NCBI GenBank assembly: GCA_017541105.1
Contig: JAFXZS010000015.1
Coordinates: forward strand, 1 to 64,000
DNA: 64,000 nucleotides
Origin: Clostridia bacterium
GTDB taxonomy: Bacteria > Bacillota > Clostridia > Christensenellales > Aristaeellaceae
Direction: 5' to 3'
Below the pieces are notes generated by a model, which was given only the letters and a program-made list of their open reading frames with translations, did not search any database and had not been told where the DNA came from. Below, in pieces: positions 287 through 17,233 of the stretch (positions are counted from its first letter, which is position 1; the number at the start of each line of letters is the position of its first letter). A program made the translations under genes and the position numbers.

Positions 287-315
287 TTGACACAAGTCTG
301 CAATTCACGTACACT
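287..315 (+). promoter_or_regulatory. Promoter of the accessory Hsp70 operon
   Basis: TTGACA, 17 bases, TACACT. It is the only strong forward promoter before the GrpE-like gene and predicts transcription from about 322, with a 5' leader of roughly 138 bases. No CIRCE-type inverted repeat (TTAGCACTC form) is seen, so HrcA control is not supported. Confidence 0.75.
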
Positions 316-360
316 CCATATCGACAAAGACGGGAAGCGCCCATTGCAACAATTCAAACC

Positions 361-412
361 GGTTATGCCCGTGCATGCTGCACGGAAACGGTATAACCCG
401 ATGAAGGTTTTT
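361..412 (+). promoter_or_regulatory. Leader hairpin with T-run, possible attenuator
   Basis: An outer stem GGTTAT/ATAACC (361-366 with 393-398) encloses a perfect 7-base-pair inner stem CCGTGCA/TGCACGG (369-375 with 379-385). Six T follow at 407-412. It lies between the predicted start site and the first gene of the Hsp70 operon. The 8-base gap before the T-run makes it a weak terminator as drawn, so its role in attenuation is inference. Confidence 0.4.
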
Positions 413-459
413 TCACAGAATTGTGCAACCGCAAAAATGGCTCAGAGGTGTGGAAGGGA

Positions 460-903
460 ATGAAACGTAACAGATCCAGGAGCGCACCCGATACGGAAGC
501 CCCGGAAAAGATGATTGAAAAGGAAAACGAGCATCTGCGATCCGCCTTGGTGGAGATTGCAGCGGAGAACTGGCGTTTTGAGCATGCGCTGAAAAAGGTC
601 CTTCAGGGGATGGATATTATGGAAGCGGAACGTTTCAGCCGCCAGTACAGCTATTTTTCCTCCCGCGTATCCCAGGCTATGTCCCTCGCGGGGCTGACCT
701 GCCTTGACATGAGCGGCCAGCTCTATGATGTGGGCATGGCGGTTCAGGGGATGAACCTGGAGGAATTCGAAGAAGAGGAGTCCCTGATCATTACCCGGAT
801 GGTGGAGCCGGTCATTCTCTGGAACGGCAGGGTCGTCAGAAGCGGGATGGCTATGCTGGGAAGAGCGGCGCATCCTCAGGAAGCGGAGGAAGAACAAACA
901 TGA
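460..903 (+). CDS. GrpE-like nucleotide exchange factor (divergent)
   Basis: A 147-residue protein. Residues about 15-75 are predicted helical and charged (coiled-coil-like). The C-terminal half reads like the GrpE beta domain: a Gly-rich segment with YDVGMAV where GrpE has a FDP...H.AV-like stretch, then an acidic linker, then VEPVILWNGRVVRSGMAMLG, which matches the end of GrpE (Q-K-G-Y-x-L-N-G-R-x-x-R-x-x-M). GrpE releases ADP from Hsp70, and the next gene, overlapping by four bases (ATGA), is an Hsp70, so the pairing is coherent. The ATG at 460 is chosen over the upstream TTG at 421 because a purine-rich AAGGGA precedes it. It is shorter and more diverged than housekeeping GrpE (about 180-200 residues). 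The assignment rests on motif and context, without a database search. Confidence 0.72.
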   Translation: MKRNRSRSAPDTEAPEKMIEKENEHLRSALVEIAAENWRFEHALKKVLQGMDIMEAERFSRQYSYFSSRVSQAMSLAGLTCLDMSGQLYDVGMAVQGMNLEEFEEEESLIITRMVEPVILWNGRVVRSGMAMLGRAAHPQEAEEEQT

Positions 904-3377
904 AGCATTATGTAGGGATTGACCTGGGGACCACCAACAGCGTGATCTGCACTTTCGACGGGCAGGATACCCGTGTCTGGAAAAGCCCGGAGATGAACGA
1001 TGTTACGCCGTCCGTCATCTATATTGACAAGCGGGGCAACCGGTTCTATGGCCGCCGTGCCTACGACATGGCCCCGCTGAATGAAAAAAACGCCGCCTCC
1101 CTTTTCAAGCGCTATCTGGGAACCAATATGCGCTTTACCCTCCAGGGCGTGGAGATGACGCCGGAGGAGTGCAGCGCGGATATCCTGAAGGTGCTCTTTG
1201 GATATCTGCCGCCCGAAATCGCCAATGATCCCGAAACGGCCACGGTCATTACCGTTCCTGCCGCGTTTAACCAGATGAAGAAAGACGCTACCCTGGACGC
1301 CGCCCGGATGGCGGGCATTCAGCGGGTCACGCTGATGCAGGAGCCTGTCGCCGCGGTCATGAGCGTTATGAAAGCCGCTCCGGGCGAAAAAACCTTCCTG
1401 ATTTACGACCTGGGCGGCGGCACGTTCGATGTTTCCGTCGCTGAAAGCGTGGGCAACCGGGTCAATCTGCTGGTTCAGGGCGGACGGGAGATGTGCGGTG
1501 GCCGGGACTGGGACCGCATGATTTTCCAGCAGGCAGCGCTGCCCTGGCTGCAGGAGCATTTCCGCCTTCCGGAAAACTGGATGACGGATCCCGCCTGGCG
1601 GGCCCTGTCACGGCTGACCATGTATGCCTGTGAACAGGCGAAAATCGAACTGTCCTCCCTGGAGCACACCGAGATCCGCATGGACGAGTTTCGCATGAAC
1701 ATGCAGGATCTGGACGGCGCGGAGATTTACCTCGATATTCCTCTTTCCCGCGAGACCATGAACAAGATCATTGACGAGACAGTGCAGGACACCGTTGATG
1801 TGACCCGCCAGACGCTGGAAAAGATCGGCCTGTCCGAAAAGGATGTGGATCAGATCGTTTTCGTAGGCGGCCCGACGAAATACTCTCCCCTGCGGGACCG
1901 GATTATGGAAGAACTGCATCTTCAGGGAGAAATCGTGGTAGACCAGATGACGGCCGTGGCGGAAGGCGCCAGCATTTTCGCGGAGTCCATCGACTGGTCA
2001 GACACCCAGCACCGCCGCAAGCAGACCCGCGAGGAGGTCAAAGCCACGCCGGAGATCACCCTGCGGTATGAGAAGCGCACCTCCGCCGCCTCCGCCAAGG
2101 TCGCATTTGTTACGGCTGAAGCCGTTGACTTCACCGTGGAAATCACCAGCACGCAGACCGGATGGACTTCGGGACGGATCCATCTGGAAAAGAGCATGAT
2201 GCTTACCCTGCCGCTTTCCATCGCTGGGGAGAATATGTTCCGGGTGCAGGTTTGGGATCAGTCAGGCCATCAGGTGGAGCTGCCCGATGACAGTGTCTGC
2301 ATCATCCGGACCATGGCGGTGATCGGCACCATCCCGGCCACCAGCCCCTTCGCCGTCAAGGCGCTGGACCGGATCGGCGGCAAGGCGGTGCCCGTTTATC
2401 TGGTGGAAGAAAATGATTCCCTGCCCAAGCAGGGCCAGGTCACGTTTGTAGCAGGCCAGACGCTTTATGCCGGCAGCGAGGATGCGCTTGTGTTTACGCT
2501 TTGGGAGGGAGATATCAAGGATCCCATTGAGGATAACCGCTATATCGGCACATACCGGATCTCCGGAAAATCCCTCCCCGAGGGAACCGTCCCTGTTGGC
2601 GCCGAAATCATCTGCGATTATGAGATGAGCGATGCCGGCGCCCTGCGGCTGGGTGTTTCCATTCCCTGCATTGGAGTCAACCTGCATGCGGCCAATTTCT
2701 ATTCCCGCCAGGACGGCCAGACCGCCCTGGATGACCATCCCCGCCTTCTCCGGCAGATCGCGGCGCTGGAACAGCGCCTGGCCCTGATCGCGGGGCGGCT
2801 GCCTGATTCCGCGGAGGTGAAATCCCTGCAGAAGAAGACGGCTTCCATCCGGGACATGGCGGAGCATACCGATGACCCTGAAAGCCTGTTGCAGGCCAAC
2901 AATGACCTGCTGGACTGCCTGCGGGCTCTGTCACGCGTAAGCCGTGCCCATCGCCGGGAAATCCGGATGCTGGATCTGGATCAGGTCACAGAGAAGTTTA
3001 ACCATTTCAAGGCAGTTGCCACCGAACAGGAAATCACCGCGTTCCAGGTTGCCCGGGAAGCGGCTGTGCGTGCGATTGACCGGGATTCGGGCGCGTTTGA
3101 GGCCAATATGGATGAACTGCAGACCCGGGCGAATTCCCTGCTTTGGCGGCAGGATGAAATCATTGAGCTCAATCTGATGCGCCGGCTTGTCCAGCCGGAC
3201 AACTTCGTCGACCGGGCGAAGTTCGACCAGCTGCGGGTCGCGGGGCTGACCGCCCAGCGCAGCAGAAATTTCCAGCAGATGCGCCAGGTGCTGGCGGAGC
3301 TTATGGCCATAGAAAAGCCGGATAATGTGAGTGCCGCCGGACAGATGATGGAGCAGGTCAACGTGATTCGGAAATAA
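900..3377 (+). CDS. DnaK-like Hsp70 chaperone, enlarged
   Basis: An 825-residue Hsp70 family protein, against about 610-640 for DnaK. The ATPase domain spans about 1-370: phosphate 1 motif GIDLGTTNS (6-14), EPVAAV, phosphate 2 motif DLGGGTFDV (170-178) and the adenosine motif VGGPTKYSPLR (about 321-331). The canonical hydrophobic DnaK linker (DVLLLDVTP) is missing; KATPEITLRYEKR stands in its place. An extra beta-rich segment follows (about 395-480), then a substrate-binding-like beta domain with a YIGTYRI-like strand, then an unusually long helical C-terminus (about 610-825). There is no EEVD-like tail. It overlaps the GrpE-like gene by four bases and is followed 12 bases later by an AAA+ gene. 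It is probably a specialised Hsp70 that acts with its operon partners rather than the housekeeping DnaK. Confidence 0.9.
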   Translation: MKHYVGIDLGTTNSVICTFDGQDTRVWKSPEMNDVTPSVIYIDKRGNRFYGRRAYDMAPLNEKNAASLFKRYLGTNMRFTLQGVEMTPEECSADILKVLFGYLPPEIANDPETATVITVPAAFNQMKKDATLDAARMAGIQRVTLMQEPVAAVMSVMKAAPGEKTFLIYDLGGGTFDVSVAESVGNRVNLLVQGGREMCGGRDWDRMIFQQAALPWLQEHFRLPENWMTDPAWRALSRLTMYACEQAKIELSSLEHTEIRMDEFRMNMQDLDGAEIYLDIPLSRETMNKIIDETVQDTVDVTRQTLEKIGLSEKDVDQIVFVGGPTKYSPLRDRIMEELHLQGEIVVDQMTAVAEGASIFAESIDWSDTQHRRKQTREEVKATPEITLRYEKRTSAASAKVAFVTAEAVDFTVEITSTQTGWTSGRIHLEKSMMLTLPLSIAGENMFRVQVWDQSGHQVELPDDSVCIIRTMAVIGTIPATSPFAVKALDRIGGKAVPVYLVEENDSLPKQGQVTFVAGQTLYAGSEDALVFTLWEGDIKDPIEDNRYIGTYRISGKSLPEGTVPVGAEIICDYEMSDAGALRLGVSIPCIGVNLHAANFYSRQDGQTALDDHPRLLRQIAALEQRLALIAGRLPDSAEVKSLQKKTASIRDMAEHTDDPESLLQANNDLLDCLRALSRVSRAHRREIRMLDLDQVTEKFNHFKAVATEQEITAFQVAREAAVRAIDRDSGAFEANMDELQTRANSLLWRQDEIIELNLMRRLVQPDNFVDRAKFDQLRVAGLTAQRSRNFQQMRQVLAELMAIEKPDNVSAAGQMMEQVNVIRK

Positions 3378-3389
3378 GGAGAATTTACC

Positions 3390-4811
3390 ATGGATGAGAA
3401 CCGATGGCTGCCGGCAGACCATACGCTGGCGGACGGGAATCACATTCGCAGCCTGTATGTCCGGGGCACCTCCTGGCAGTTATACACAACCGGGGAGGAC
3501 GGATATGCCCTGGCTGTATCGGATGAGCTGTATCACCGGTGGCTGTCGCTGGGATGGGTGGAAGCCGGCCTGTTTGAAACCACAGAGACCGCCGGAAAAC
3601 CGGTTCATGTGCTGAACAGCCGGGCGGGAAGCCAGATCGCCAGCTTGGCATACGGCCCCTATCCTCATCAGCGGAGCCAGGCACTGTCCTTTGTCAAAGC
3701 CCTGCGCCGTTCCCTGGAACGTATGGGCCAGTTCCGGCTGGAAAGCGCGATTTATATTGAGCGTTTTTCCCTGGTTCTGGCAACCGCCTGGGAAGGAACC
3801 GGAAGCGCATCGGTCAACCAGGCAGCGGGAAAACACCTGACCGGCGGCCTGGATGTCCCCCTCAGTTCTGTTTCGCTCGTCCTGCAGTACGCGCCATACC
3901 TGACCGAGAGCGATGTCAACCAGTTCCTGGACCGGCTGCATCTGAGCAGGGATGAAGGCGCCGCCGGCATCCTGACAGACGGGGCTGCCGAGGCTGCAAC
4001 CGTGAAGAGTCCCCGGGACAGGCAGCCCCGGAAGAACGGGCCGTTCTGCCTTCCGGGCCGGCCGGCGCTGGAAAAGTTTTTCCGGGAAGAGATCATCGAG
4101 ATCGTGGACCATGAGGAAGAATACAAACGGCTGGGGGTTGGCTTTCCGGGAGGCACCGTGCTGTACGGGCCTCCGGGCTGCGGAAAAACCTATGCGGTGC
4201 AGCAGCTGACAGATTATCTCGGCTGGCCGGTGTACTACATCGATTCCGGAAGCATCGGCAGCAAATATATCCATGAAACCAGCCGGAAGATCAGCGAAAT
4301 CTTCGACCAGGCGGCGGAGAACGCGCCGTCGGTTGTGGTCATTGACGAGTTTGAGGCCTTCCTCTCCAGCAGGGAGGGCAGCATGGGTTCCCGGGAAGTC
4401 CACTTGGAGGAAGTGGCAGAGTTCCTGCGGAAAATTCCACAGGCGCAGGAAAAGCGGGTGCTGGTTTTCGGGATGACCAATCTGCTGGACGTGGTGGATC
4501 ATGCCATCCTGCGCCGCGGCCGCATCGACCATATGATTGAAGTGGGAATGCCTTCCGCGGAAGAGATCAAAGCCCTGCTGGAAAGCTTGCTGCAGAACAT
4601 TCCGGCAAGCGATGACCTTCCCCTGGAACAGCTCAGCCATGAATTGACGGGGCGCCCCATTTCCGATATTTCCTTCCTTGTGCGGGATGCCGCGCGCCGG
4701 ACTGTGCGGGCGGGAAAAGACCGGATCTGCGCAGAGGCGCTGCTGGAGTCCGCGAAGGCTCTGCCGCAGAAGGACAAAAAGGAAAGGCGCATCGGGTTCG
4801 GCGTGGGATGA
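3390..4811 (+). CDS. AAA+ ATPase of the Hsp70 operon
   Basis: A 473-residue protein. The C-terminal half is a single classical AAA module: Walker A GPPGCGKT (260-267), Walker B VVVIDEFE (315-322), sensor region FGMTNLL and an RRGRIDHMIEVGMP arginine-finger/sensor-2 neighbourhood, like proteasomal or Cdc48-type ATPases. Residues 1-215 are unrecognised and do not resemble ClpB N-domains or FtsH membrane segments. There is no second ATPase domain and no protease domain. The RBS AAGGAG lies seven bases before the ATG. An AAA+ unfoldase beside an Hsp70 suggests a remodelling or disaggregation pair analogous to ClpB with DnaK. That pairing is inference; the ATPase call is firm. Confidence 0.88.
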   Translation: MDENRWLPADHTLADGNHIRSLYVRGTSWQLYTTGEDGYALAVSDELYHRWLSLGWVEAGLFETTETAGKPVHVLNSRAGSQIASLAYGPYPHQRSQALSFVKALRRSLERMGQFRLESAIYIERFSLVLATAWEGTGSASVNQAAGKHLTGGLDVPLSSVSLVLQYAPYLTESDVNQFLDRLHLSRDEGAAGILTDGAAEAATVKSPRDRQPRKNGPFCLPGRPALEKFFREEIIEIVDHEEEYKRLGVGFPGGTVLYGPPGCGKTYAVQQLTDYLGWPVYYIDSGSIGSKYIHETSRKISEIFDQAAENAPSVVVIDEFEAFLSSREGSMGSREVHLEEVAEFLRKIPQAQEKRVLVFGMTNLLDVVDHAILRRGRIDHMIEVGMPSAEEIKALLESLLQNIPASDDLPLEQLSHELTGRPISDISFLVRDAARRTVRAGKDRICAEALLESAKALPQKDKKERRIGFGVG

Positions 4812-4868
4812 TTGCTTCATCAGGAAAAAGAAACTTGCACATCGGCGCGGGAAGGGAGAAGCAGGAAA

Positions 4869-6566
4869 ATGGCCATCGTGAACGACTGGCAGAAACCGCT
4901 GGAAGAATCGTTGGAATCGGTCATGAACAGGAAAAGCATAACGGCGGAGGAACTGGACCGGATCAGAAACACGCTTGACATGCTGGATCCGGGAACGGAA
5001 GGCGCTGTTCATCTCCGCCATCACCTGGAGGAGTGCTGCCAAAAACTGGAAAAGAAATATCAGGAACTGGTTCAGAAAATTGACAGTGCCCGGAACAGCA
5101 GCGAAACGGAGCGTACGGTCGATGCCCTGAAGGCGCTGGGCCCCTATAAGGATTCCTCTGAAGTTATCGCCCGGGGGGAACAGCGGGCGGAGCAGCTTCG
5201 CCGCGAGGAAGCGGAGAAAGAGGCGCGGATGAAGGCCCGCGCAAAGAAGCGCAGGATCTTTGCTTGGGCCGCCGCCGCGGCACTTTTGTGCGTAGTGATT
5301 CTCATTATCATTTTAAGCGCACAGGCCCATCAGGAAAAAATCAAAACCGTCAAGGCGCAGATTCAAACCATGATTGATACGCGGCAGGAGGCTGAAACCG
5401 GCGATCCGCTGGAGGAGCTGGCATCCATGGGCATTCCCATGGAAGAACTGTATCCGCTGTCCGAAGCCGCATTGGAAAGCCTGGCACTGCGGGAAGGGCC
5501 CGATGCCGCGTATGCTTTGCTGGAGGAACTGAACGGGAGGAAGGTTTCCGTCGTCAAACCCACGACGTTTAACGAGTGGGTGCGCCAGCAGTTCCACGCG
5601 GAAAACCTGTCCGCTGAACAGCGCTGGGCGTTTGCCAGAGCTTATCCGAATGATTTCAATATCCAGTCAGCGGCCGATGACATTTGTGCTGTCTTTAACG
5701 AGTATCTGCTTTTCCTGGCTGAAAACGGGGAAGCCTGGGACGGGAGCAAATGGAACGCCTGGGCGGAGGAAACGCGCCCCTATACGGACGTTCTTCCGGC
5801 GGATCCGGAAACGGCCCTCCTCCTCTGCGGGCGGATGAACGATGCCGGCGCGGATCTTAAGAGCGCATTTCCGGACGGAATCCTGGTCAATGTGCCCGTT
5901 GCCGCTTCCGTCAGCGCGGCGAATGAATGGTTCGGCAGCGAAAACGAATCCTCTGTATGGCCAAGCCTGAAAAAACTGCTGCCCCTTCGCGTGACAGAGA
6001 AAGCTCCGGAAGAAATGTACACGAAAACATACGGTTCCATGACGAAACTTGAGTCGGGAATCAAAGAAATGCAGGCGGAAGATGACCATTACTCCGTATA
6101 TCTTCTGTGCGGCTATCTGTCGGATATCCCAGAGGAAAGCAGAGCGAAAACCTTCGCGGAATGTACCGCGTACCTGACCATGCAACAATCCTATGTGCTG
6201 TCCGGGTATACCTATACCACCACAACCTATTCCAATACCACATACAACTACTTCAACCTGGATTCCGGCCTGACTTCGAATTACCGCGGTTACTACATCG
6301 CGCTGGATGCGGTCATGCTGTACAGCCCGGGGGATGCCGGTCAGTTTGCCGCGTACAATACCTCTTCCCACGAACCGGTGATCGCGGAAGAGGGATGGTA
6401 CGACGAGAACAAGAACAGAAGCAACAGCACCGTTTTCACGCAGGAAAACACCCTGGGTGTTCACGACAGGCAGGCACTCGGGATCGCTTATGAAGACTCC
6501 CTGAAAAACCTGGAAACGCTGAAACTCCTGTCCCTGATCCTGTCTGCGGGCGCGGCAGAAGAGTAA
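4869..6566 (+). CDS. Single-pass membrane protein of the Hsp70 operon
   Basis: 565 residues from the ATG at 4869, which has GGGAGAAGCAGG upstream; a TTG at 4812 in the same frame has no clear RBS. Residues 1-128 are charged and helical and contain an LGPYKDSSE segment like the YKDS repeats of other Firmicute membrane proteins. A Lys/Arg-rich stretch then precedes one strong transmembrane helix (about 130-152). The positive-inside rule puts the first 128 residues in the cytoplasm and the remaining ~410 outside. The outer part is helical, then carries a Thr/Tyr/Ser-rich patch (about 445-490) and an acidic end. No family is recognised. It could anchor the Hsp70/AAA complex to the membrane. Confidence 0.75.
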   Translation: MAIVNDWQKPLEESLESVMNRKSITAEELDRIRNTLDMLDPGTEGAVHLRHHLEECCQKLEKKYQELVQKIDSARNSSETERTVDALKALGPYKDSSEVIARGEQRAEQLRREEAEKEARMKARAKKRRIFAWAAAAALLCVVILIIILSAQAHQEKIKTVKAQIQTMIDTRQEAETGDPLEELASMGIPMEELYPLSEAALESLALREGPDAAYALLEELNGRKVSVVKPTTFNEWVRQQFHAENLSAEQRWAFARAYPNDFNIQSAADDICAVFNEYLLFLAENGEAWDGSKWNAWAEETRPYTDVLPADPETALLLCGRMNDAGADLKSAFPDGILVNVPVAASVSAANEWFGSENESSVWPSLKKLLPLRVTEKAPEEMYTKTYGSMTKLESGIKEMQAEDDHYSVYLLCGYLSDIPEESRAKTFAECTAYLTMQQSYVLSGYTYTTTTYSNTTYNYFNLDSGLTSNYRGYYIALDAVMLYSPGDAGQFAAYNTSSHEPVIAEEGWYDENKNRSNSTVFTQENTLGVHDRQALGIAYEDSLKNLETLKLLSLILSAGAAEE

Positions 6567-6580
6567 CGGAGGAAAAGAAA

Positions 6581-7690
6581 ATGAACCTGCAAGAGAATCC
6601 TTTTGCTGTTTTAGGCGTCTCCCCGAGGGATAACCGCCACACGCTGCTGGAAAAAGCGGACGAAGCAGCCCTGCTGAACGGCGCTGCGGTGGAAGATGCG
6701 CTGGCGTCTCTTCTGAAAATGAATCAGCGCGTCGAGGCGGAGCTCAGCTGGTTTCCCGGAACCGATCCATCTGCTGCCGAAACCTTCCTTCGTTACGCGA
6801 AAGAACTTTCCGGCGGCGGCCGTGTGCCCATGCCCTCCCTGGAAGGACTGGGATGCCCCCTCGCGCAGGCCAACGCGCTTTCCGCTTTTTTCGCCGCCTG
6901 GCCGGATGATTACCCGGAGTATACCTTTGGGCTGTGCCGCAGCCTGGACCGGATTCTGTCGCAGGTCACGGCAGATGAAACCCTGAGCATGATCAACGAA
7001 GACCGCCAGGCGGGCGGCTGGGATCCGATTCAGGATGAGCTTGCGCTGGCCGATCCGCTGGAGGCCAGGCTCAGGGAGCTTGTCCAGGTGGTCCGAATCC
7101 GGATGGACCGTGCTGCGAACGAGAAAAACTTACTGGATACGCTGAACCGGATCATGAGCTCCGATATGGACAAACAGGGCACCGTTGCCCAGGCAGCGTC
7201 TGATGCCTATGTCTTCCGGATCCATGATCAGGAGGAAAGCCTCCGCACCCGGATCAATCAACAGCTGTCCGCGCTCCTGAAGGACAGGATCACCGCGACC
7301 CGGATCGCGGCCCTCAAGCCAAATGTTGAAAGCTGGTGCCGCCTCACCGGGCCACTCCGGCAGACGGCGGGGGCGTTCCGGAACCACGCGGAAAGCATCT
7401 GCCATGATCTGCGGGAGTGCATTGTCTCCTGCTTTAACAGCGCCCCGACATCCACGGAGAAACGTTCCAGAATTCTGCCGGTGGCCGGCGGAACCCAGAC
7501 GCGGACCGTTACTTATGAGAGCAAGAAGAACGCCTGCCAGCAAGCAATTGATTTCTCCAAATGGCTGGCAGCGCTCTTTCCCGAACAAACCCGCTTCGTT
7601 GAAATGCTGAAAGAAGATCAGAAAAAACTGTCGGGGATCATCACGGATGAAGAACGCATGGTCGAAAGCAAGCTGATTCTCGGCCGGTGA
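6581..7690 (+). CDS. J-like protein lacking the HPD motif
   Basis: A 369-residue cytoplasmic protein with a GGAGG RBS, 14 bases after the membrane protein gene. The N-terminus (residues about 4-60) has the look of a divergent J domain: it opens with NPFAVLGVSPRDNRHTLLEK and continues with a basic helix and a conserved ELSWFPG end. The His-Pro-Asp signature that J proteins use to stimulate Hsp70 ATPase is not present; RDNRHT occupies that loop. The rest is predicted almost all helical, with no zinc-finger or client domain. As the last gene of an operon with an Hsp70 and a GrpE-like factor, a J-like co-chaperone role is likely by context, but whether it stimulates ATPase without HPD is open. 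Confidence 0.62.
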   Translation: MNLQENPFAVLGVSPRDNRHTLLEKADEAALLNGAAVEDALASLLKMNQRVEAELSWFPGTDPSAAETFLRYAKELSGGGRVPMPSLEGLGCPLAQANALSAFFAAWPDDYPEYTFGLCRSLDRILSQVTADETLSMINEDRQAGGWDPIQDELALADPLEARLRELVQVVRIRMDRAANEKNLLDTLNRIMSSDMDKQGTVAQAASDAYVFRIHDQEESLRTRINQQLSALLKDRITATRIAALKPNVESWCRLTGPLRQTAGAFRNHAESICHDLRECIVSCFNSAPTSTEKRSRILPVAGGTQTRTVTYESKKNACQQAIDFSKWLAALFPEQTRFVEMLKEDQKKLSGIITDEERMVESKLILGR

Positions 7691-9157: not shown

Positions 9158-10867
9158 ATGAATCAACCCAGGAAAGAACTGCATCTGACCGCCAGACTGA
9201 TCTGCCTGCTGCTCGCGCTGCTGCTGGCGATTCCCGCGGCATCGGCAGATTCGTCCTCCGGGATTCTGGAGACTCTGCTCGGGGATGTGGACGGGGACGG
9301 AAAGCCGGACCTGATCACGCTTTACAATGATTATTCCCTTACAGCCGACGCGATTACATCCGCGGGATATACCCGGATGAAACTGGACGAGGTACAGAGC
9401 GCCGCCGCGTATCTTCTGGCCGGGAACATGCTGAAGGAAAAATCGCCTGGAGACGCGACCATGTGCTTCCTCAAGGCATATACCCTGAACCCGACGAAAG
9501 AAACACAGGAGGCCTTGCTGGCGGACTACCGGCAGCAGGAAGGCTCCCAGCAGGGCATTCCCGGGGAACAGGACGAGGATGACGACGACGAAGACGATGA
9601 GGACGATTACGACGACGATGAGGAGGAAGACGACGAAGACGAGGAGGACGGCGAGGAAGCCGATACGGTGAAAGATATCGGGGGGAAAGGCGCGGAAGAT
9701 ACCCCGGAGGAGGATGACGAGGAAGAAGACGAGGAGGATGAAGAAGAGGACGACATCTCCTCGAAAACCATCACAGAAACGAAGACCTCAAGAAAGATCG
9801 ATCCCGGATACCATTTCCGGTTCGGCAGTTTTGAGCAGGATACTTTCACGGCCAACGGAAAAGAACCCATCATCTGGCGGGTGCTGGATGTGGATGAAGC
9901 GGGCGGAAAGGCGCTGGTGCTTTCCGAGTATGGCCTGCAGGCGATGAGATACAACAGCCGGAACGAGCCCACCAAATGGAAAGACGCGGATGTCCAGCGC
10001 TGGCTGAACAACGACTTTATGGGATCCTTCACCCCGGAAGAAAGGGAATGGATTGTTCCGACGACGGTCAGCGGATCGAAGGATAAAGCGTTTTTGCTGG
10101 ATGCCGACCAGATCCGGAAATATCTGAGCAGTCCTTACCAGTGCTTCGCTACCCCCTGGGCGATCTACCATGATCCGGACCATCCCGCGGATGTCCATCC
10201 GGATACCGGCGCCAGTTCCTGGCTGGTGCGCAGGGATAAGACGGAGAGCAGGATCACCTTTGTCGGCGGAAGCGGAAAGCTGTATGTGCCGGAAGAAGGC
10301 TCCAAGATGAAGGATACCATGAAGACCCAGAACAATGTGGTGCGCCCAGCAATGTGGGTCCGGCTGGAGGCCATCGGGGAAGAGGTTACGGATTACAGCC
10401 TGCCGCTCTTCGCGATGCCGCTGACGGCGAAGCTTCCCACCTGTTCCGGGCCGGCGAATGAATACCTGACAGTGGGGGAATACGAAACCAACGGGAAGCC
10501 GGTTCATGTGATCTCCAAGGCGCATGACGGCAACATCGTCCTGTGGATCCAGTACGAGTATGAAAAGAGCGGCAAAATGGTCCGCTGCTATGCGGGATCC
10601 CAGCGGTTTGATTTTGACACCGGCCGGCTGCCGGAAGATCCGAAAAAAGCGCTGGGGAAAGGAACCGTGCTTTCGGTTGATACGGTGCATCTCGGCCCCG
10701 GCACGCAATACAGGGAGGCGAAATTCCCGCCGACGGTCGGGATGAAGGGAGCGATCATCTTCGAGGAAGACGGGTGGTACTGCCTGGAGTACACCGTGGA
10801 AAGAAAAGGGGAGAAGCATCCGGTGCGCGCCTGGCTGCCGAAGGACGCCGTGAAAGTGAAAAAATGA
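9158..10867 (+). CDS. Secreted acidic DUF6273-like protein
   Basis: 569 residues from the ATG at 9158, seven bases after a perfect AGGAGGT. The signal peptide is Leu-rich and ends in an ASA cleavage site near residue 30. Next comes a DVDGDGKPD loop (about 42-52), like the calcium loops of dockerins and EF-hands, then a TPR-like helical stretch, then an extreme Asp/Glu tract (137-199, nearly every residue acidic apart from a short interruption). Residues about 208-415 resemble DUF6273 (start: FRFGSFEQD, ...PIIWRVLDVD, a W-x-x-A-D-V-Q-R-W-L-N segment, end: RPAMWVRL). The C-terminus looks like one or two SH3-type wall-binding modules. Likely cell-surface. The acidic tract may bind calcium or other cations. 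Function unknown. Confidence 0.8.
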   Translation: MNQPRKELHLTARLICLLLALLLAIPAASADSSSGILETLLGDVDGDGKPDLITLYNDYSLTADAITSAGYTRMKLDEVQSAAAYLLAGNMLKEKSPGDATMCFLKAYTLNPTKETQEALLADYRQQEGSQQGIPGEQDEDDDDEDDEDDYDDDEEEDDEDEEDGEEADTVKDIGGKGAEDTPEEDDEEEDEEDEEEDDISSKTITETKTSRKIDPGYHFRFGSFEQDTFTANGKEPIIWRVLDVDEAGGKALVLSEYGLQAMRYNSRNEPTKWKDADVQRWLNNDFMGSFTPEEREWIVPTTVSGSKDKAFLLDADQIRKYLSSPYQCFATPWAIYHDPDHPADVHPDTGASSWLVRRDKTESRITFVGGSGKLYVPEEGSKMKDTMKTQNNVVRPAMWVRLEAIGEEVTDYSLPLFAMPLTAKLPTCSGPANEYLTVGEYETNGKPVHVISKAHDGNIVLWIQYEYEKSGKMVRCYAGSQRFDFDTGRLPEDPKKALGKGTVLSVDTVHLGPGTQYREAKFPPTVGMKGAIIFEEDGWYCLEYTVERKGEKHPVRAWLPKDAVKVKK

Positions 10868-15283: not shown

Positions 15284-16207
15284 ATGAATCGGAAAGCATT
15301 GCGTGGCAGCCTGCTGCTGCTGTTCGGCGCGGTGATCTGGGGCGCGGCCTTTGCGGCCCAGCGTATGGGAATGGATCATGTGGGGCCCTTTACCTTTTCC
15401 GGGGTACGGATGCTGCTGGCCGGGCTGGTGATGATTCCCGTGGCGGCGGCGGCCGGGCGGAAGGTTCCGGAAAAAACGGCGGAGGACCGGAAACGGCAGC
15501 GGACCGGCGGGCTGATCTGCGGCATCCTGCTTTTCGCGGCGACATCGCTGCAGCAGATCGGCCTGGTAGATACGGCGGCAGGGAAGGCCGGGTTTATCAC
15601 GGCGCTGTATGTGGTGCTGGTGCCGGTGGCCGGATGGCTGATTCTGCGGAACAATCCCGGAAGAGTGATATGGATCGGCGTGGCTCTTGCCGTAGCGGCT
15701 CTGTATCTGCTGTGCGTACCGGACACGGGGTTTCAGGTGGAACGGGGAGACCTGCTGCTGCTGGGCTGTGCCGTATGCTTTACGGGACAGATCCTGTGCG
15801 TGGATCACTACGCGCCGCGGGTCAGCGGCGTGGCGCTGGCCAGGGATGAATTCCTGGTTACCGGCGGGCTGTCCATGATCACAGCCATCCTGACGGAGGA
15901 GATCCGGTGGGACGGCATTACGGAAGCGATGATTCCGATCCTGTACACCGGGATCTGCTCCGGAGCGCTGGGGTATACGCTGCAGATTATCGGGCAGAAG
16001 GAAGTGAACCCGACGCTTGCTTCCCTGATCATGTGCCTGGAATCGGTGTTTGCCGTGCTGACCGGCGCAGTGCTGCTGGGAGAACGGATGACCGGGCGGG
16101 AAGTGCTGGGCAGCGTGCTGATGTTCACGGCGGTGATCCTTGCACAGCTGTCTCCCGTGCTGGAAGGAAAGATGAAAACTTCACGAACCGAAAAGAAGGA
16201 GGACTGA
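15284..16207 (+). CDS. EamA/DMT-superfamily transporter
   Basis: A 307-residue membrane protein with about ten hydrophobic helices arranged as two five-helix EamA repeats (about 5-145 and 155-295). Motifs typical of the drug/metabolite transporter superfamily include FGAVIWGAAFAAQ in helix 1, TSLQQIGL, a TAGKAGFIT-like segment, and PTLASLIMCLESVFAVLTG in the second repeat. The family exports or imports small metabolites (amino acids, nucleotide precursors, sugars); the substrate is not predictable. The stop codon is three bases before the next ATG, so it forms an operon with the SDR-type gene. Confidence 0.88.
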   Translation: MNRKALRGSLLLLFGAVIWGAAFAAQRMGMDHVGPFTFSGVRMLLAGLVMIPVAAAAGRKVPEKTAEDRKRQRTGGLICGILLFAATSLQQIGLVDTAAGKAGFITALYVVLVPVAGWLILRNNPGRVIWIGVALAVAALYLLCVPDTGFQVERGDLLLLGCAVCFTGQILCVDHYAPRVSGVALARDEFLVTGGLSMITAILTEEIRWDGITEAMIPILYTGICSGALGYTLQIIGQKEVNPTLASLIMCLESVFAVLTGAVLLGERMTGREVLGSVLMFTAVILAQLSPVLEGKMKTSRTEKKED

Positions 16208-16210
16208 AAC

Positions 16211-17233
16211 ATGAAAGCGTTGTTTATCGGCGGAACGGGAACCATCAGTATGGCCATTGTCAGGCGCCTGGCGGAAAAGACGGACTGGGAGGTCTGGCTG
16301 CTGAACCGCGGAAACCGGGCGGCGGAGGTTCCGCAGGGGGTTCGGACGATCACGGCGGATATCGGGGATGAAGCGGCGACGGCGGAAAAACTGAAGGGCA
16401 TGACTTTTGACACCGTGTGCGAATTCATCGGCTTTACGCGGGAACAGGCAGAGCGGGACTGGCGCCTTTTCCGGGATAAAACCCGGCAGTATATCTACAT
16501 CAGCTCCGCCTCCGCTTACCAGAAACCGGCGGCGTCGTATCTGATTACCGAGGGAACCACCCTGGCCAATCCTTACTGGGAGTATTCCCGGAACAAGATT
16601 GCCTGCGAGGAGTTCCTGATGCAGAAATACCGGGAGGAAGGTTTCCCGGTGACAATCGTCCGGCCCAGCCACACCTATGATGAACGGAGCATTCCGATCG
16701 GCGTGCACGGGCACAGGGGCTCGTGGCAGGTGATCCGGCGGATGCAGCAGGGCAAGCCGGTCATCATCCAGGGAGACGGTTCCTCCCTGTGGACGCTGAC
16801 GTTCAATACGGATTTTGCCAGGGGCTTTATCGGCCTGATGGGCAACCGGCATGCCATCGGCGAAGCTTTCCAGATTACCGGCGACGAGACGCTGACCTGG
16901 GATCAGATTCACCGGACCATCGCGGATGCCCTGGGCGTGGAGCTGCATCCCTACCATGTGGCGGCTGACTTCCTGGCGGCGGCCGGCAGAAAAGCCGGAT
17001 ATGACTTCGAAGGCGGACTGACCGGGGACAAATCGGTCTCTGTGGTCTTCGACAATACGAAGCTGAAGCGCGCCGTTCCGGACATGAAGACGAAGGTGCC
17101 TTTCCATCTCGGCGTGCGGAAGGCGCTGAACCATATTCTGGCCCATCCCGAGCTGCAGGCCGAGGATCCGGAGTTTGACGCCTGGTGCGACAGCGTGATT
17201 GCGGCGCTGGAAAAGGCAAAGGAAAGCGTCTGA
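16211..17233 (+). CDS. NAD-dependent epimerase/dehydratase-like protein
   Basis: A 340-residue cytoplasmic protein with an AAGGAGGA RBS. A Rossmann fold opens with FIGGTGTISMAI (residues 5-16; a variant of GxxGxxG with Ser at the last place), followed by the basic LLNRGN patch. SSASAY occupies the active-site region, with YSRNKIACE giving Tyr-x-x-x-Lys. The C-terminal part (after about 180) is the substrate lobe. It fits the atypical/extended SDR group that includes CSP41-like and sugar-nucleotide epimerase relatives. The substrate is unknown. It shares a transcript with the DMT transporter. Confidence 0.85.
   Translation: MKALFIGGTGTISMAIVRRLAEKTDWEVWLLNRGNRAAEVPQGVRTITADIGDEAATAEKLKGMTFDTVCEFIGFTREQAERDWRLFRDKTRQYIYISSASAYQKPAASYLITEGTTLANPYWEYSRNKIACEEFLMQKYREEGFPVTIVRPSHTYDERSIPIGVHGHRGSWQVIRRMQQGKPVIIQGDGSSLWTLTFNTDFARGFIGLMGNRHAIGEAFQITGDETLTWDQIHRTIADALGVELHPYHVAADFLAAAGRKAGYDFEGGLTGDKSVSVVFDNTKLKRAVPDMKTKVPFHLGVRKALNHILAHPELQAEDPEFDAWCDSVIAALEKAKESV

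Follow-up and report, generated by a model that had tools for sequence, protein, structure and literature searches.

What is an Hsp70 machine for when every one of its partners departs from the housekeeping form? The question is raised by an operon in a Clostridia bacterium (assembly GCA_017541105.1; 1.92 Mb, 62% complete), found in the first 64,000 nucleotides of contig JAFXZS010000015.1 (C21), a stretch that we call the window. Five tightly packed open reading frames (ORFs) on the + strand, A to E, occupy positions 460-7690 and encode a short GrpE-like protein, a divergent Hsp70, a classical-type AAA+ ATPase, a single-pass membrane protein and a J-like protein (Table 1). They had been described from the letters alone (the sequence-only reading) as a full chaperone set of atypical members. 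We find that the operon is a real, conserved, mobile and rare accessory Hsp70 system of new architecture, possibly with an immune role. The five-gene set is real and the gene identities largely hold by ORF calling, Pfam and profile comparison. No partner has the housekeeping form: the HPD loop, the interdomain linker and the J-docking arginine are absent and the GrpE is short. With loop, linker and arginine all lost, it is doubtful that the machine runs a classical DnaJ-DnaK cycle.

Co-occurrence in other genomes had been named beforehand as a test that could overturn the idea of a coherent system. We picked loci through the Hsp70 and then typed them with family hidden Markov models. The gene set, whole or partial, was present in 36 loci including the window, 23 of them clostridial-type, 8 proteobacterial and 5 on IMG/VR contigs, and its recurrence in 35 further loci rules out chance. 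All five parts stand in the order A-B-C-(D/X)-E in 16 loci (10 A-B-C-D-E and 6 A-B-C-X-E), X being the membrane protein found in Proteobacteria. Over the 36 loci, A was found in 29, C in 31, E in 33, a D-type protein in 16 and an X-type protein in 12; a D- or X-type membrane protein is present in 32 if four E proteins with their own transmembrane (TM) segment are counted. Several missing genes are contig ends, as L036 and L038 end within the cluster and L050 and L235 begin within it. A is missing in L046, L047 and L048, and C in L037, L046 and three alphaproteobacterial loci; in L038, L044 and L047 a multi-TM protein lies 5' of B instead.

The Hsp70 scan of genome contigs returned 22 loci, 21 titled Clostridia or other Bacillota and one a Synergistales fragment, with full-length relatives 43-87% identical by best segment. 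A tblastn search of plasmids found full-length relatives at ~42% identity (40-42%) in Shewanella, Aeromonas, Polaromonas and Vibrio and at 34% in Sinorhizobium; 7 of the 12 plasmid records were analysed with their flanks, the remaining five being four from Sinorhizobium and one from Aminobacter. Scans of IMG/VR contigs added L153, the full members L233-L235 and the distant L152. One of these scans gave 80 loci, of which two (L152 and L153) were analysed and nearly all others match the nucleotide-binding domain (NBD) only. In a phage collection no record reached 80% coverage of the Hsp70, the ten best covering at most 45%, and the E. coli Hsp70 had no match at 1e-60.

Within any one group the system is rare. 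Among 5426 E. coli genomes one has the whole A-C stretch and another carries a 28% remnant. In E. coli NH-21, a C-X-E remnant (L120:12013-15684) lies between insertion sequence elements, near a dptF remnant as in E. coli HeN100. Searched with E, the order (395 genomes) gave two matches, the second a weak one (2.5e-4), and a profile of the Hsp70 C-terminal half matched 1 of 391 genomes of the class (the organism's own) and 2 of 45 of the genus. The second congener (G842, taken to be L039) has an Hsp70 47% identical to that of the window and placed in another supported clade, for which separate acquisition would be the simplest reading. When loci were aligned by a nearby esterase gene, all eight congeners examined lacked A-E within ~9 kb upstream; this does not demonstrate an insertion, because the congeners' other genes near the esterase also differ. 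The operon is not the organism's sole dnaK/grpE locus, a possibility that we rejected on finding a canonical set on contig C3 (region 79168-81800), with grpE at 79168-79641, dnaK at 79759-81474 and dnaJ from 81612. The sequence-only reading knew of no characterised system with this gene set, and we found none described in the literature within reach, which left out most subscription journals.

We then asked what kind of Hsp70 this is. The Pfam HSP70 match in B is limited to residues 5-362 (1.8e-54), the NBD. In an alignment of 33 Hsp70 rows (L050, L052 and L152 left out), the equivalents of DnaK D8, K70, E171, D194 and T199 are unchanged in all 33, and B is, by its residues, a working ATPase. 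The equivalent of DnaK R167, residue 144 in B, is alanine in 24 rows, threonine in 7 and serine in 2; the genome's own DnaK has arginine there. The equivalent of N170 is glutamine in 33 of 33. The canonical linker VKDVLLLD (DVLLLD) is absent, as had been claimed for this 825-residue protein, and in its place is an extra segment of ~110 residues with no similarity to the DnaK substrate-binding domain (SBD) by hhalign. The stretch that follows, residues 483-584, has a moderate match to SBD-beta (hhalign probability 49, score 30.6, best of 60 shuffles 22.6). An initial SBD comparison was weak (probability 3, score 25.3 vs. 21.7 for shuffled columns), and a profile of the C-terminal half recovered no DnaK among PDB sequences. 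In the Aeromonas copy (L052:8995-11492) the Hsp70 is broken into two ORFs.

The co-chaperone candidates are harder to recognize. No family passed the Pfam cut-off in A, D or E of the window; A and E gave no Pfam match at all as single sequences, and neither phmmer nor profile searches of PDB returned anything useful for them. Single-sequence GrpE matches were seen in 2 of 17 A members (best 0.048) and at 0.018 for the E. coli A, none reaching the cut-off. Compared as profiles (23 A rows against 31 GrpE rows), A and GrpE aligned over 101 columns with an hhalign probability of 93.4 and a score of 47.7, the best of 30 column shuffles scoring 19.9. A GrpE-fold sequence profile is thus supported for A, which bears out the earlier identification of a short GrpE and makes the protein a putative nucleotide exchange factor. 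The first 50 residues of E (32 rows) matched a set of 28 diverse J domains with a probability of 76 and a score of 28.2, the best of 60 shuffles reaching 15.1. DnaJ was absent among the best 25 of 50 Pfam families for 21 E members. The HPD string occurs in 2 of 33 E proteins, in both inside an L(L)HPDxRL motif aligned to the end of helix III, and in none of the 33 at the loop. E may be described as having a candidate J domain with the HPD loop deleted, an identity less firmly backed than that of A with GrpE. In locus L030 a second E-type gene follows the first (15731-16501), and the contig ends inside it.

As summarized in PMC8215388, D35 of the HPD motif bonds R167 and Q378, H33 contacts linker residue L391, and changes to HPD abolish stimulation in every system tested, so that HPD is held essential for J-Hsp70 action. 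We consider the joint loss of HPD in E and of the R167 dock in B to be the most telling feature of the system; the pair looks co-adapted to a different contact.

The AAA+ protein has its Pfam AAA match at residues 257-386 (2.5e-28), a C-terminal IGF motif, and an N-domain (residues 1 to ~230) whose profile found no meaningful match among PDB sequences, in line with the earlier description of an unknown N-domain. Walker A is present in 31 of 32 C rows, the remaining row being an N-terminal fragment, and the RRGR (arginine finger), pore-loop SKY(I/V)HET and C-terminal IGF patterns are each found in 29 of the 32. The PADLOC IetA model matches C at residues 233-462 only (1.7e-30), within its AAA part; the NCBIfam IteA model reaches 97.6 bits where its cut-off is 510, with CDC48 and PAN models scoring equally well. 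Identities as FtsH, CDC48 or IetA were rejected, the matches being confined to the AAA domain. In another family of the order, L019 (G059:C8:6559-7206) holds an open frame of 392 residues, and its AAA domain and that of C share 35% identity.

Several features suggest that the system is very probably located at the membrane. D has one hydrophobic segment, as expected of the single-pass protein first described, preceded by positively charged KARAKKRR; the positive-inside rule points to an N-in topology. In L037, L039 and L041, D starts with a zinc-ribbon-like sequence. Proteobacterial X proteins are built alike: a GFAGLSSLVSDVD-type motif lies at the N-terminus, and a hydrophobic stretch and an outer domain of 85 residues are also shared. 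PG_binding_1 was found in both X proteins scanned with Pfam (L051 and L054), and SH3 is annotated in X of L053. X and E form one ORF in two alphaproteobacteria (L055 and L118) and are adjacent genes in L119, and E has its own TM segment by hydropathy in four clostridial loci (L042, L043, L045 and L049).

What surrounds the operon elsewhere? We compared 12 non-clostridial contexts, counting the Shewanella and Aeromonas copies as one for their common tns genes; PADLOC models were run on 52 ORFs picked partly by annotation, with the best 25 of 246 families considered and the flanks of L153 and L235 covered within the pool only. Recognised defence genes (Zorya, Gabija, BREX, RADAR, Hma, restriction) lie nearby in 6 of the 12. 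The Polaromonas locus has zorA with OmpA, EH and SNF2 neighbours, GajA (1.5e-276), GajB (2.3e-237), brxD and pglZ. The chromosomal copy of E. coli HeN100 has rdrB and a dptF remnant nearby, and the S. meliloti copy has GajA (5.1e-275), GajB (6.9e-241) and a type IIG restriction-modification gene (9.7e-147). HmaA (E=0) is ~2 kb from A in L233; Aminobacter has a GajA-like neighbour (3.7e-41), and Sinorhizobium 05631 an annotated restriction endonuclease, Fic and toxin-antitoxin (TA) genes. A helicase next to L234 has ambiguous matches (5.3e-43), and the Vibrio context holds an integrase and a TA pair only. The Shewanella/Aeromonas copy stands directly 3' of annotated tnsA, tnsD and tnsE of a Tn7-like element. 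Six more genes follow E in that element (L051:16446-20253), and the first of them may belong to the system because it also follows E in L233 and L234 (~75% identity).

No clear defence island is seen around the clostridial loci, the window among them. A common helix-turn-helix protein, an M78-type peptidase and membrane or TPR proteins precede A in L042 (4995-8619), L043 (4978-8627) and L049 (4645-6922). Directly after E in L043 (14487-17510) is a 1008-residue protein that reads by eye as a metallophosphoesterase plus P-loop NTPase, reminiscent of STAND-type defence proteins.

Taken together, these results suggest a dedicated Hsp70-AAA+ protein-remodelling machine at the cytoplasmic membrane, most likely for defence against phages or other invaders, a reading to which we give about an even chance. 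Counted in its favour are the spread of the gene set over Clostridia, Proteobacteria and IMG/VR contigs, the links to membrane and wall, the intact ATPase residues with the joint loss of R167 and HPD, the defence neighbours, tns mobility and patchiness. Membrane tethering and defence context give outside support to earlier guesses at membrane remodelling or defence, while function is a proposal; the third guess, a stress device, gained no such support. More tentatively, at somewhat less than an even chance, the operon would be an undescribed chaperone-based immune system in which a membrane sensor tethered to the wall passes an envelope signal, by way of a J adaptor without HPD, to an Hsp70 lacking the classical J dock and linker; this Hsp70 would then feed an AAA+ unfoldase that targets proteins of the invader or the host. 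D, or X in Proteobacteria, would reach through the membrane, in Proteobacteria bind the cell wall, and hold E beside itself. As E seems to keep a J-type fold but lacks the HPD loop, it is probably a bound adaptor presenting a client or a conformational signal, and not a classical trigger of ATP hydrolysis. Hsp70 B would hydrolyse ATP, be reset by the short GrpE-like A and hand the client to the AAA+ ring, which, as its pore-loop aromatic implies, would thread a protein; in loci lacking C, the Hsp70 and E would act alone. The trigger may be a perturbation of the envelope or an invader protein at the membrane, and the effect the unfolding of an invader protein or a host protein. We infer complex formation, trigger, client and anti-phage effect, and the reading of function rests on genomic context.

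Several results weigh against this proposal. Defence neighbours were not resolved in the remaining 6 of the 12 contexts outside the Clostridia, namely Shewanella/Aeromonas, Vibrio, L234, L153, L235 and L152, the flanks of the last of which were not scanned. Control stretches of 48 kb had no annotated defence on pSymA or HeN100 and had HipA, AbiE and HamA (Hachiman) on the Polaromonas plasmid pPNAP01; proximity in Polaromonas weighs less because a control stretch of the same defence-rich plasmid also has AbiE and Hachiman. In the clostridial flanks (101 of 128 listed ORFs searched), matches fell in 39 PADLOC families, the best 25 all kinase-type with at most three members each. The window's 45 flank ORFs are housekeeping genes with one marginal PADLOC match, and we rejected a defence island there. 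A Pfam scan of A-E found no nuclease or known toxin domain. The 19-residue hydropathy threshold is passed by 3 of 8 X proteins, the stretch being shorter in the rest. For E, the earlier claim of a J-like protein without HPD stands as to the missing motif, and its J identity is backed by the diverse J set but not by a narrow set of 30 DnaJ-type domains (probability 3, score 15.8 against at most 13.6 in 30 shuffles). Alignment in global mode ranked some shuffles above the true E/J pair (127 vs. 27), and local mode alone was therefore used.

The same observations could be read as an accessory envelope-proteostasis machine that works under stress on damaged membrane or secreted proteins, refolding or extracting them, and takes no direct part in immunity, its patchiness reflecting niche-specific gene exchange, for example among rumen Clostridia. 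Chaperone parts with intact ATPase residues, wall-binding and membrane domains, the lack of clear defence genes near the clostridial loci or in the window and the many relatives titled as metagenome-assembled genomes of the ruminant gut all fit. Nevertheless we hold this to be rather unlikely, as the proteobacterial loci adjoin Zorya, Gabija, BREX, RADAR and Hma genes and follow tns genes, and the system is so sparse among E. coli (1/5426) and congeneric genomes (2/45). Loss of the linker and the J-docking arginine, which makes the classical allosteric cycle doubtful, would suit a regulatory or assembly switch in which ATP-driven oligomerisation or shape change of the Hsp70 gates the AAA+ and membrane proteins, with peptide binding secondary; nucleoside triphosphate (NTP)-dependent assemblies have been proposed for HSP70/GrpE/DnaJ conflict loci in the account of Kaur et al. 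2020 (PMC7159879). The retention of an SBD-beta-like region and a GrpE-like partner fits a substrate cycle instead, and such a switch seems distinctly improbable. The operon might finally serve the mobile elements themselves, in plasmid upkeep, conjugation or transposition, and share islands with defence genes only through common mobile DNA. Its plasmid, Tn7-like and IMG/VR locations and the integrase or TA genes nearby in Vibrio agree with that; however, no tns genes were seen at the clostridial loci or in the window, whose contigs look chromosomal, the E. coli copy lies on a chromosome, and we consider a helper role very unlikely indeed.

The features of the operon are collected in Table 1. 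The sequence-only reading had placed five genes on one promoter; a promoter sequence is present and the genes are packed, but TTGACA-17-TACACT-type matches occur at chance level (4 found vs. 3.6 expected), and the claim therefore rests on gene packing.

Table 1. Features of the operon, in window positions.
Feature	Position	Strand	Details and basis
Candidate promoter TTGACA-17-TACACT	287..315	+	5' of the five genes; motif match
Gene A, short GrpE-like	460..903	+	ORF of 147 residues from ATG 460
Gene B, divergent Hsp70	900..3377	+	825 residues; overlaps A by 4 nt
Hsp70 NBD, residues 1-362	900..1985	+	Pfam and residue alignment
Extra ~110-residue segment between NBD and SBD at the linker place, residues 366-475	1995..2324	+	Alignment
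Probable divergent SBD-beta, residues 483-584	2346..2651	+	hhalign
Gene C, classical-type AAA+ ATPase	3390..4811	+	473 residues; gap of 12 nt from B
Gene D, single-pass membrane protein	4812..6566	+	584 residues from TTG 4812 or 565 from ATG 4869
TM segment of D, ~residues 149-167 of the TTG form	5256..5312	+	Kyte-Doolittle 3.03 over 19 residues
Gene E, J-like	6581..7690	+	369 residues; gap of 14 nt from D
J-like part of E, HPD loop deleted (less firm than A with GrpE)	6596..6736	+	hhalign, diverse J set

Just 5' of the cluster is a tRNA-Val (gac) gene at 97-173 on the - strand; tRNA genes also lie near the cluster in L032 and L033, whereas the other 24 related loci scanned have none there. 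On the 3' side, positions 9158-10864 encode a DUF6273 protein with a very acidic low-complexity stretch. One of the 45 flank ORFs encodes an MMR_HSR1 protein.

A conserved Hsp70 lineage that has kept its ATPase while HPD and the docking arginine are gone asks what else can drive an Hsp70, and its genetic coupling to an AAA+ ring is a rare form. Should function follow the defence context, remodelling by chaperones at the envelope would join the known means of bacterial immunity. How, then, does the operon compare with known systems? The partner of IetA in IetAS, IetS, is a subtilase. Although C matches the PADLOC IetA model in its AAA domain, no such partner is among A-E and the match falls short of full-length IetA. 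DnaK-DnaJ-GrpE is closer, with an NBD bearing the catalytic residues, GrpE-like and J-like partners and a probable SBD-beta. Unlike it, the operon has an Hsp70 with ~110 extra residues for a linker and R167 lost, an E without HPD, a GrpE without the long N-terminal helix, and added AAA+ and membrane partners. Three prokaryotic Hsp70 types are listed in PMC8215388 (DnaK, HscA and HscC), and by its linker the operon Hsp70 fits none of them as described there; were the immune-system reading true, it would represent a fourth bacterial type and a new mode of Hsp70 control.

The related idea of HSP70 conflict loci is already in print, and parts of the operon are, as far as their profiles tell, remote relatives of known chaperones. 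The GAP1-N2 GTPase-centred conflict systems, as outlined by Kaur et al. 2020 (PMC7159879), combine HSP70, GrpE and a DnaJ-fused FNIII protein, and they resemble the operon in these partners, in membrane or wall-binding domains, in Firmicutes hosts and in a predicted role in conflict. In that outline the GAP1 GTPase is central, whereas the operon has an AAA+ protein with its own N-domain and also occurs in Proteobacteria with recognised defence neighbours. Pfam scans found no GTPase domain in A-E and no FNIII match in D or E of the window, and we rejected membership. CoCoNuT loci, as presented in PMC11090510, likewise place an Hsp70-like NBD/SBD unit (CnuD) in a predicted defence locus, but CnuD comes fused or linked to GTPase and nuclease parts of the McrBC type and reportedly has a degenerate Walker A-like motif; the operon has no McrB/McrC part and its ATPase residues are intact, and this membership was rejected too. 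In bNACHT25, as reported in PMC12169576, chaperones are tied to phage sensing through DnaJ. That system employs the host's own DnaJ/DnaK with HPD function and its proteins are unrelated, whereas the operon encodes its own Hsp70, GrpE-like and HPD-less J-like partners.

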